Shown: piece after piece, positions 511 to 60,000 of the stretch
Layout of the letters: the number at the start of each line of letters is the position of its first letter
Numbering within the stretch: the stretch's first letter is position 1
NCBI RefSeq assembly: GCF_035083965.1
Contig: NC_089722.1
Coordinates: 41,801,697-41,865,696, forward strand
Reading direction: 5' to 3'
DNA length: 64,000 nt
Origin: Branchiostoma lanceolatum
Taxonomy: Eukaryota; Chordata; Leptocardii; Amphioxiformes; Branchiostomatidae
Program-made: the position numbers and the translations under genes
Notes under the pieces: generated by a model
What the model was told of the DNA's origin: nothing
What the model saw: the letters and a program-made list of their open reading frames with translations, nothing else
The model's database searches: none

Positions 511-1866
511 GTGGAGCCCCTCCGCCAAGTTGCAGGGTTGCCAAAAACTGTCCCCGGACGTGGTGTCCGACGTGTGCCGCTCCAATCGTCACGTGGCCGT
601 GAAGACCATCCGCTTGGTGGACATCAAGTCCCTGGCCCCGCTCGTCAGAAACCCGCGCCTAAACGTCAAAGTCGTCCACCTCATCCGGGACCCTCGCGGG
701 ATCTACAACTCTCGCGTGAACGAGAAGCGCCGCGAGAAGGGCGCGCCCGACACCGTGGCCGAACAGATGAACTTCTTGTGTAAAAGGGAGGCGTACAATC
801 TACAGGTCAGTGTAAATCTGCACTCTACAGGCCAGGGTAAACCCACAGAAGGTGTGTGGACTTCTTGTTTAAGCTGGAGGCCAACAATGTACAGTGTAAA
901 CTTGCAATCTTCGTATACAAGTCAGTATAAACCTGCCATCTCAGGTCACTTACAATCGATCTAAAAGGTCAGTGTTAGGCTGCTCACGGGATGGGGACTT
1001 GTTGTGTAAAAGGGAGGCCTATAATATACAGGTCAGGCCATGTTGATTTGATTATTTGGATGATATCGATGCGCGCATCAATTTTCGTCCGTTAAAAAAA
1101 AAGTTTTCGACCATACTGTAAATCGTACAAAGCAGCTGCAAAATGACAAAATATACGTTGTAAATTGAAAAAAAAAAATTGCGGAAAACGGATACTAAGG
1201 GGTGTTCTGACAGGGGGTCGGAGTTCAAGTTGCCTTGGCCTTGTTCGATCATGTTAACATGTTATGGGCCATTTCTTACAATGCTCATTGTTCCCTCCAT
1301 GCCAGGTGGGCCGATCGCCGCTCCCCTGGCTCGCAGGGCGCTACAAGTTGTTCCGGTTCGGAGTTCTCATTCTAACAATGCCCATTGTTCTCTCTCTCTG
1401 CCAGGTGGGCCGATCGCCGCTACCCTGGCTGGCCGGACGCTACAAGTTGTTCCGGTACGAAGACATCGCGCAGCGGCCCCTACAACAGGTGCAGCTGCTG
1501 TACGACTTCGTGGGCCTTCCCCTCCCCCAGCACGTGACGCAGTGGATCAAAGACAACACGCAGGAGGACAGGGACAGCAGTCTCTACACCACGTCACGCA
1601 ACTCCTCCGCCACTGCGCATGCGTGGAGACACGCCGTGCCCTGGCGGTACGCGCAGAAGGTGGAGAGCACATGCGCGAAGATGCTGGACCTGGCCGGGTA
1701 CAAGCGCGCCCCTAGCGAGAACCATCTGCACGACATCTCCTACGGCCTCATGGGTGATATCCCGACTCCTAACGTCCAGTCTAACGGTCAGGGTTCTAAA
1801 GCGGAGTCAAATCTGAACTTGCCCACAAAAGTACAGCTATTTGATGAAAATATTGACTCTCTATAG
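511..1866 (+). CDS. Carbohydrate sulfotransferase, CHST1/3-like (3' part only)
   Basis: Golgi type II enzyme that transfers sulfate from PAPS to galactose/GalNAc residues of proteoglycan or keratan chains. Two exons are seen: 511 (or 536)-805 and 1405-1866, joined in phase 0. Exon 1 carries HVAVKTIRL and the 3'-phosphosulfate-binding core VVHLIRDPRGIYNSR. Exon 2 carries GRYKLFRYEDIAQRP, LLYDFVGLPLPQHVTQWI and TTSRNSSATAHAWR, the order and spacing of the CHST1/CHST3 C-terminal half. The N-terminal membrane anchor and the 5'-PSB loop are missing and must lie in upstream exons outside the window. The acceptor of the first exon is uncertain (CAG at 508-510 or 533-535). TAG at 1864-1866 is followed by AATAAA at 1899. 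Both splice sites of the single visible intron are duplicated in tandem (separate entries). Family assignment is firm; the exact CHST paralogue is not resolved. Confidence 0.88.
763..1042 (+). repeat. Donor-spanning degenerate triplication, sulfotransferase exon 1
   Basis: The exon end plus donor (about 768-813, TGTAAAAGGGAGGCGTACAA then CTACAG|GTCAGT) recurs in degraded form at about 858-905 and more closely at about 994-1040, where GTGTAAAAGGGAGGCCTATA is followed by TACAGGTCAGG. The duplicated block includes coding sequence, donor and intron start. Confidence 0.7.
1275..1460 (+). repeat. Acceptor-spanning tandem duplication, sulfotransferase exon 2
   Basis: Two copies, 99 bp apart, of polypyrimidine tract, CCAG and the first ~55 coding bases of exon 2: one with its exon start at 1306, the genuine one at 1405. 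Both acceptors are intact. Copy 1 is open and in frame with copy 2, so use of the upstream acceptor would add 33 residues, repeating VGRSPLPWLAGRYKLFR. Confidence 0.85.
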
Positions 1867-1898
1867 CGTTTGATTAAAGATATGAAATGTCGTTTTAT

Positions 1899-57000: not shown

Positions 57001-60000
57001 CTCCAATATCCTAAAACATAGATTCTTCCCACAAATTGTTAACCATGATTCTCCCCACCTTGTCGTGCTGCGCTCCCGTTGCGGAGGTGAAAGTAGTTTT
57101 CAGTCTCTCGTCATTCACAAAGTAAGATCTGACCAGGTGAGCTGAGATTCGCACGTCTCGTGAGACGTCTACAAGTGGAAGGAAAGGGCCAAGAAGTAAG
57201 CTAAGATAAAGAAACACAATAGGTGAAATAGTCCATATCCCATTGAACAGTGGTCACAAAGACTTTCAATTTCTTCTCTTATTCCTAGATCTGGCAGCTG
57301 AGTCAGACACTTGCCATCCGTCTCTCTATGTACCAGGGCTGTCTTCAGGACTGTCTTCTCTCCATCCCAGGATGAAACATTTCCTTGTTCACCTCATCCA
57401 TTCAAAAACGTCATGATATGAAATTAGAACCTTCGTCAATGCAACTTTTAACATAAAAAAATTTCTGCTAGACTCTATTTTCATGTTCATTTATCAATTT
57501 GGTGCTATTCTATTAGATCTGAGAAGCAAGAAATAAAGTTGCCTTTGCCTAAAATATTTTGGCTTAAGATTCCTTTTTTTTTACACCTTATAGAACCTCT
57601 TCTTACAACTAAATTAAAAGTTGTACTGGTCGGCAACCAGAGTTTCTGGTTAAGATAAAAGGAGTACGTTTTGGTTTAAGACATAAGTCATAAGGAAGAG
57701 AACCTGAGACATCCTCACCTCCTGAAGACTTGACGAAAGCTGTCCTGTGCCGGCCGATGTAAGCCGTCGCCTCCAGACTGCTGTCTTTAGCCAGTAGGTA
57801 CACCGTACAACTCCCTACAGCTGAGGGCTTCAGATGGGTCAGCCTCGAGTCAAGGGCTGGGCATGGATGTGGGGAAAAGGAACCAGAAAATGAGAATGCA
57901 TGCTACTGCAATTGGTTGTAGTCCTTGGAAGGGACGTTAAGCCATGGTCCACTGTTCAGGTGAAAGAGTCTTCTGTTAGGGGCGTAGTCTAGGATGGGAT
58001 GTAAAGCCGAATGTCTTGTGTTTGAGGAGAGCTTAAACCTCGAGTATGTTTCAGGTCTCATGAAAAGAGTGGAGATCCATCCAGGTGTGAGTGGTTCAAC
58101 CTTATAGTCCAGTCTTTCACAGCTTGTTCCTACAGTAAAACTGGTGTGTAACACCTAAAGGCGGTTTACTAGTTATGCAAAATAAAGAAACCAAAGTTCC
58201 CACCTTCCATGGATCCATTCTGGTTGATGACTGTTCGTTCGTCCTTGTTGGTGGTGCGGACCTTGATGTCGTAGTGGGGTGAGATGGGACTGTAGGCCGT
58301 GCCTGCTTACCATAAAAAATTATACAAACAAATATGCATTAAGGGCCACATTTGGTACAGCATTTGGTACTGTAGTGATACCTAGCAGCCATATGCAAAG
58401 TAGAATCCGAGATGGCGTATCCCACTTTGGTTGTGTGTAAGGAATTTAAAACTGATAAAACTAATATTAAGTATGCATTGAGTGTGACAATTCAGACCTT
58501 TGCCCTAGATGTTATGTCAATAGTTCATGTAGGAAATTAACAATAAAATCAAGTTTCTATGACCTTGATATTCTAAATAGGAGCTGTAAAATATGCAACA
58601 GGAACGTAACTTTACCTGTGCCGAGGTACTATATACTTGATATTACCTGTGTCCAGGTATTCTATCTAACATTACTAGTACCTGTGTCCAGGTGTGATAT
58701 TTACCTGTGTCCAGGTGCTGGTCCACCTGTTCCCTCCAGTCCAACAGGTCCTGAGGCTGGGTCTGTAGAGGAAGGACAAACTCCACTCCCACGTTATAGA
58801 TGACCTTGAGAAGGGGGAGGGGCGCTGTTAGTGTTGGCTGTAACTGCCGGTTATCATGACATAGGGGGGAGGACAGTGAACGTATAAAGCATGCTGCCTC
58901 ACAATCTCCTGATCCTACATACAAATGTGGACCATAACCATGTACATACACACACATACATTCACAAGAACACAAGAACAAACACACACATGTACACATG
59001 CACATACACACACACACACACACACACACACACACACACACACAAACACTCACACACATCTACACACACAGACACACACATGCACACACACACACACACA
59101 CACACACACACACACACACATACATACACACACACACACACATGCACACACAGATAGACACATACTACATGTATAGTACCTGTGTATCCTTCAGCTGCCC
59201 TATATCCCCATACGGCAGCGTTGCCCGGTACACCTCCGTAGTTTTCCACCAGAGCGGCACGCCGATCACCACGACAACCAGCGCCACCCCGAGGGTCGCG
59301 TACACCTGGGTAACTGCCTCTGTGGAAGCAACATCTTTTAGTTTTAGTCTTTTGGAGCAAGATTTCTGGCAGGTGCCCTCCATCATTTAACTGTTCTGCA
59401 TATCTAGCCCTGGAAGTTGTAATCTGAATAGAACACCTGTTGTAAAATGTTACATGCCTCTTCATTCAGAATTGAATAATCTTCATTTTGGAATCAAACA
59501 TAACTGGCTCCCATCACATCATAGCCTGTGAAGCAAAAGTCCATCACAGGTTACTGAAACATGATTGTTCCTACAAAATATACTAGTATTACTACTTGGA
59601 CGATAGGTTTGAAATATCATTTTTCAGACCACTCCAGAAAGGTAGAGACTAGAAACACAATATTCTTTTATGAAAATGTAGGGAAAACTGCACTGGCTCA
59701 GAATGTGCTGTTGTTATGAATGATTGACTTGATGATTGACGTTAATTAGACTGGGAGGCAATCAGGTCATAGAATTGCTAAGGAATAAAAAGGAAACAAT
59801 TAACATCAAAATTCAAATGCTACAAATGCTACATAATTGCAGTCTCTCTTAACAATAAAGTACAACAACAAGGAACTACATCCATTGTAAACACGTATGA
59901 AAGCAGGAATTTAACCTCATCAATTATTCATAACTCATGTTCAGGCAGACCTTGGAATGGAAAATTGTGTCATTCCTGGATGGATGTAGGGCTTTAAATC

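Follow-up and report, generated by a model that had tools for sequence, protein, structure and literature searches.

In the window analysed here, a 64,000-nucleotide stretch of the Branchiostoma lanceolatum genome, repeats were found to carry exon/intron junctions more often than expected from random placement. Mapped gene spans were overlapped by 20 of the 31 repeat loci detected, and a mapped junction lay inside the repeated segment at 11 of these 20, the other nine being without one. This junction excess is statistically real within the window and amounts to about twofold when whole arrays, or about fivefold when single repeat units, are placed at random. The arrays are further examples of the lancelet 'mirages', a phenomenon already in print. 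Our preferred reading, to which we assign a probability of about 0.7, is that they are junction-crossing duplications tolerated through the use of the copy proximal to the exon core, with the excess reflecting either biased formation or retention, or the choice of the window.

The exon map used as a reference comprised 32 exons and 53 junctions, and was based on reading frame, homology and splice signals. Pfam identified a sulfotransferase (SULT) gene (511-1866, plus strand), an XK-related gene (about 3390-4499, minus strand), an LRR membrane gene (38.39-46.62 kb, plus strand) and a YdjC-like gene (61.6-63.5 kb, plus strand), and the PIGS gene (about 48.7-59.39 kb, minus strand) was recognised by phmmer to 7wld_S and by Pfam PIG-S. 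A channel-like gene, termed TPC-like, was mapped on the minus strand only at 10.07-17.35 kb, with one exon identified by Pfam (Ion_trans). As three phmmer searches of its region (9.4-24.3 kb) yielded a single match, at E 0.36, in one of them and none in the other two, its exons were placed by reading frame and splice signals only, and its map is partial. Some PIGS exons, and possibly some LRR exons, are also absent from the map. GC content was 0.577 in exons and 0.421 in introns, and Rfam and tRNA scans gave no matches.

Repeats were sought by a diagonal self-comparison blind to exons, from which low-complexity matches were removed throughout, and TRF was also run. The strictest setting of the scan, whose loci were those used in the placement tests, returned the 31 loci in 64 kb and no pairs in each of three Markov controls; the loosest yielded 3, 1 and 1 pairs in the three controls against 41 merged loci in the window. 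Seven acceptors and four donors were carried by repeats, i.e., 11 of the 53 mapped junctions: a donor and an acceptor in SULT, one uncertain GC donor in the TPC-like gene, four acceptors in the LRR gene (one of them weak) and four junctions in PIGS. The first-pass annotation had listed at least 14 junction-spanning repeats in these four genes. The exon-blind scan recovered such repeats in all four and 11 of the 14 cases, namely both in SULT, one of three in the TPC-like gene, four of five in the LRR gene and all four in PIGS, while two TPC-like cases and one LRR case were not recovered; the match was made by gene only, the claimed cases having come without coordinates. A TRF array at 17017-17090 stops 71 bp short of junction 17161, and the scan locus from 43130 onward begins 60 bp off junction 43070; neither was counted as spanning. 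TRF also reported a 22-bp minisatellite in 16 copies (3019-3371) that lies a short way downstream of 3387, where the XK-related reading frame ends, a 137-bp unit in 2.1 copies at 30930-31312, outside the mapped genes and with a diverged extra copy upstream, and, in unannotated sequence, a 12-bp unit in 19.5 copies (33989-34222) and an 11-bp unit in 23 copies (34476-34722) separated by a gap of about 250 bp.

In SULT, the donor duplication (771-1036, plus strand) was detected by the scan as a 40-bp match of 90% identity at offset 226. A three-copy alignment placed the authentic last exon base at 805, a further copy at 997-1036 and, at about 855-945, a degenerate copy that lacks the GT; these copies are dispersed and not strictly tandem. 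The acceptor duplication of the same gene (1273-1462, plus strand; TRF, scan and alignment) consists of two copies of a 99-bp unit, and AG is retained both at 1305 and at the authentic 1404. Use of the upstream acceptor would add 99 nt in frame and without a stop, that is, an insertion of 33 residues. Boundary duplications are present at both ends of this one intron (805-1404). In the TPC-like gene, the end of the Ion_trans exon is duplicated at an offset of 110 (9940-10117, minus strand; scan, alignment and Pfam Ion_trans). Its junction at 10075 would be a GC donor, an assignment that is uncertain. At an acceptor near 10741 the only repeat found was 10 bp long.

All four LRR repeats lie on the plus strand and concern acceptors. 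At 39303, the scan detected a weak, dispersed duplicate (39025-39321; 33 bp, 79%, offset 264). At 41099-41588, TRF and the scan detected eight copies of a 61-bp unit at an exact spacing of 61 bp, with last intron bases running from 41143 to 41570, the final one being taken as authentic. A duplication of a 47-bp unit (42368-42470; TRF, scan and alignment) shows a match of 56 bp, i.e., 9 bp in excess of its offset. The longest LRR array, with a unit of about 121 bp (44907-45928; TRF and scan), has eight close copies spaced 110-127 bp apart, with the authentic exon start at 45846; two older, degenerate copies, near 44509 and 44898, lie upstream, just beyond the limits given. The decoy acceptors were intact in 7 of 7 cases in the 61-bp array and in 7 of 7 close ones in the 121-bp array.

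The four PIGS repeats lie on the minus strand. The exon-12 donor array (48669-51247; TRF and scan) is the largest found. Its 19 copies all read CAG|GT, the first at 51182, which is taken as authentic, and the last at 48672, so that all 18 further donors are intact over about 2.5 kb; 16 of the 18 spacings measure 136-142 bp and the remaining two 108 and 177 bp. The decoy copies were located with patterns that included the splice site; core patterns without the site gave the same counts (19 in PIGS, 8 in the LRR 61-bp array), and in the LRR 121-bp array the spacings are too tight for an overlooked copy. At exon 8, scan and alignment revealed a duplicated acceptor of 125-bp unit (53743-53998) in which both copies retain AG, the authentic exon starts at 53818 and the match of 131 bp exceeds the offset by 6 bp, and at exon 7 a duplicated acceptor of 114-bp unit (56538-56755) whose upstream copy has lost the AG. 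The exon-3 donor (58595-58724, of which the scan flagged 58641-58717) is present as four copies of CACAG|GT with last exon-like bases at 58705 (authentic), 58682, 58647 and 58616, spaced 23, 35 and 31 bp.

These structures match the amphioxus mirages named in the first-pass annotation, as far as the passages of PMC3087553 and PMC3902484 describe them. As in the passages on BflGb6, BflGb9 and Adh3, tandem repeats of 10-160 bp extend over an acceptor or donor, and many copies keep AG or GT. In our set the unit contains the exon/intron boundary at all 11 loci, 10075 being uncertain and 39303 weak. Nine loci are tandem, with a unit or main offset of 23-142 bp, and the SULT donor (226) and LRR 39303 (264) are dispersed pairs. 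Each splice site is present as the authentic one plus up to 18 decoys, most of them intact; the dinucleotide is gone in the upstream PIGS 114-bp copy and in the middle SULT donor copy, and the TPC-like copy shows CC in place of the GC of the exon. Best pairs were only 82-96% identical in six arrays, which argues against simple assembly duplication, and in the three largest arrays the closest copies reached 97-99% identity. Only the LRR 47-bp and PIGS 125-bp arrays showed matches longer than one unit, as would be expected from microhomology at the breakpoints. The amphioxus mirage criteria also include unaffected regular splicing, haplotype length differences, somatic instability and a cephalochordate host.

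For the placement tests, two of the 20 genic loci were dropped, 39396-39503 (exonic LRR homology) and the AC-rich 58939-59165 (offset 62), and locus 1882-1917, just beyond the SULT stop, was added by a distance rule, which gave 19 loci for the unit tests; the whole-array test was performed on 18, without 9940-10117, the centre of which lies outside the span used. In the unit null, single units were placed in spans with the arrays collapsed, and we judged it the fairer of the two because a founding event duplicates one unit. Here, 11 of 19 loci carried a junction versus 2.15 expected, a number reached in none of 200,000 draws (analytic P 3.3e-7). P ranged from 1.3e-7 to 1.5e-4 when one gene at a time was left out, and was 1.3e-6 with the two dropped loci restored (11 of 21). 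Restricting the set to LRR and PIGS, minus their two weakest cases, gave 6 of 9 versus 1.39 (P 4e-4), and removing the two weakest cases and all TPC-like loci with the dropped loci included gave 8 of 15 versus 1.98 (P 1.2e-4). Under the whole-array null, 10 of 18 arrays carried a junction versus 4.7-4.9 expected (P 0.002-0.003), and 8 of 13 versus 4.1-4.3 among strong arrays only (P 0.008-0.012). Junction overlap beyond random placement, which had been proposed from the sequence, was thus confirmed within the window by every null run (P 3e-7 to 0.012). Junction arrays also had longer units (28-140 bp) than the eight arrays without a junction (17-53 bp; P 0.005), and all seven arrays with units of at least 60 bp among the 19 tested carried a junction.

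The strongest competing explanation, to which we give somewhat less than even odds, is that the excess combines detection bias, in that a constrained exon half would keep junction duplications recognisable for longer, with the choice of a rich window. The excess was indeed measured in one window, chosen for its striking richness, and the array null yields just a twofold excess. Moreover, the published passages on the globin set report mirages at two of at least 60 junctions versus the 11 of 53 here, figures that are only loosely comparable, as those passages describe no systematic scan. However, when a detection advantage was granted to junction repeats, P for all 19 arrays was still 1e-4 at twofold and 0.0016 at threefold, and the harshest variant, a twofold advantage applied to the set of 8 in 15, gave 3.4 expected and P 0.006. 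Besides, age bias does not account for the three largest arrays, given the near-identity of their copies.

Alternatively, in this lineage exon edges may be mutational hotspots at which tandem duplications arise, owing for instance to transcription, to R-loops or to the change in GC content from exon to intron; we regard this explanation as doubtful. Junction content above that of equal-length unit placement, the longer units of junction arrays together with the junctions in all seven of the longest, and the higher GC content of exons all speak for it. Against it stand the single window, the globin genes with fewer mirages reported in the published passages, and the AC-rich locus left out of the tests, which contains no mapped junction. 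At similarly long odds we place the wider proposal that lancelet junctions are preferred tandem-duplication sites that would continually multiply splice sites into decoy arrays, a standing stock from which new introns and exon edges could arise. Of the interpretation in the first-pass annotation, the excess in this window is supported; the general mechanism tied to splice junctions that it suggested would go beyond a test made on one window picked as striking.

That selection retains the duplicated sites, whether they serve as coding copies or as alternative or backup splice sites, is improbable, although two observations favour it. In the 65 exon-derived bp of the 19 PIGS exon-12 copies, 5 of 6 distinct substitutions relative to a chosen reference copy are synonymous, versus an expected share of 24-30% (P 0.004-0.01), and the upstream SULT acceptor would encode an in-frame insertion. 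However, three PIGS copies have a 1-bp deletion in common, the PIGS intron part (3 of 24 columns variable) is about as variable as the exon part (6 of 54) once two atypical copies are excluded, five copies of the LRR 121-bp array differ from the authentic exon by 3-5 non-synonymous and 2-5 synonymous codons, and most of the decoys examined would break the frame. The synonymous bias counts against unused decoys, because these should lack it; our guess is that it arose by re-seeding from the coding copy, and service of the PIGS copies as extra exons was also considered. Assembly artefacts are a very improbable source of the arrays, since divergence and private variants mark the copies in most of them, even if misassembly is easy in near-identical arrays, the LRR 61-bp array among them, and, in the published passages on PGBD5 and globin BflGb6, copy counts vary between assemblies or haplotypes.

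Returning to the mirage reading with tolerance through the exon-proximal copy, a tandem duplication would first form by microhomology-mediated repair or template switching, as the 6- and 9-bp over-unit matches of two arrays suggest. Where it crosses a junction, the reading frames point to a spliceosome that would pair the sites giving the shortest exon, so that splicing would keep to the copy adjacent to the exon core, and those further out would turn into intron. The array may then grow and be homogenised through unequal exchange, with which the near-identity of the inner copies is consistent, and duplications lying wholly within exons would presumably be purged, the sole exonic locus resembling LRR homology. 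Exon definition would favour the exon-proximal copy, since the shortest exon results. The effect of using the next decoy was examined for both SULT junctions, the LRR 61-, 47- and 121-bp arrays and PIGS exons 12, 8 and 3; it would be a frameshift or a stop in 7 of these 8 cases, the SULT acceptor being the exception, and the exon-proximal copy should therefore be under selective constraint. Its use explains tolerance, not excess: with tolerance by itself, junctions should show no surplus relative to introns, which implies that formation or retention is biased towards exon edges or that a striking window was chosen. In favour of this reading we counted the 11 exon-blind loci with a mapped junction, the excess under the unit null, the diverged copies, the intact decoys and the predicted frameshift or stop at most next decoys; against it, the only about twofold excess under the array null, the single window, the incomplete exon maps, the restriction of over-unit matches to two arrays and the synonymous bias of the PIGS copies.

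According to passages of PMC3087553, mirages occur in lancelet Adh3 and in the globins BflGb6 and BflGb9, those of the globins at two junctions in a set of 15 genes, which have two introns in common. Passages of PMC3902484 describe 60- and 108-bp splice-site repeats in lancelet PGBD5, which are imperfect and for which re-sequencing argues against assembly error, and mirages in troponin C; passages of PMC2632668 mention VCBP3 introns that contain exons, whole or in part, of which some have canonical splice sites. Unlike the mirages of BflGb6, BflGb9 and Adh3 as presented in these passages, those found here affect four genes in 64 kb, reach 19 copies and are compared with random placement. As in PGBD5, where the units are imperfect, and in troponin C, the tandem units found here overlap exon edges, but they concern other genes and come with an enrichment test, which the passages of PMC3902484 do not contain. 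The Rogers model of intron gain via tandem duplication (cited in a passage of PMC3087553; potato RdRp case, PMC4974935) likewise involves splice signals within a tandem duplication; however, under that model a new intron is made, whereas here existing junctions are multiplied, and none of the arrays was noticed to hold the two ends of one intron in two copies of its unit. No genome-wide mirage test was found in the literature searched, which covers few subscription journals.

The measured junction excess would be the new element, provided that it is genome-wide; if it is not, the arrays are more cases of a known oddity. If it is, lancelets would be a test bed for how the spliceosome chooses among many equally strong sites, and also a test of whether tandem duplication at junctions feeds intron gain.
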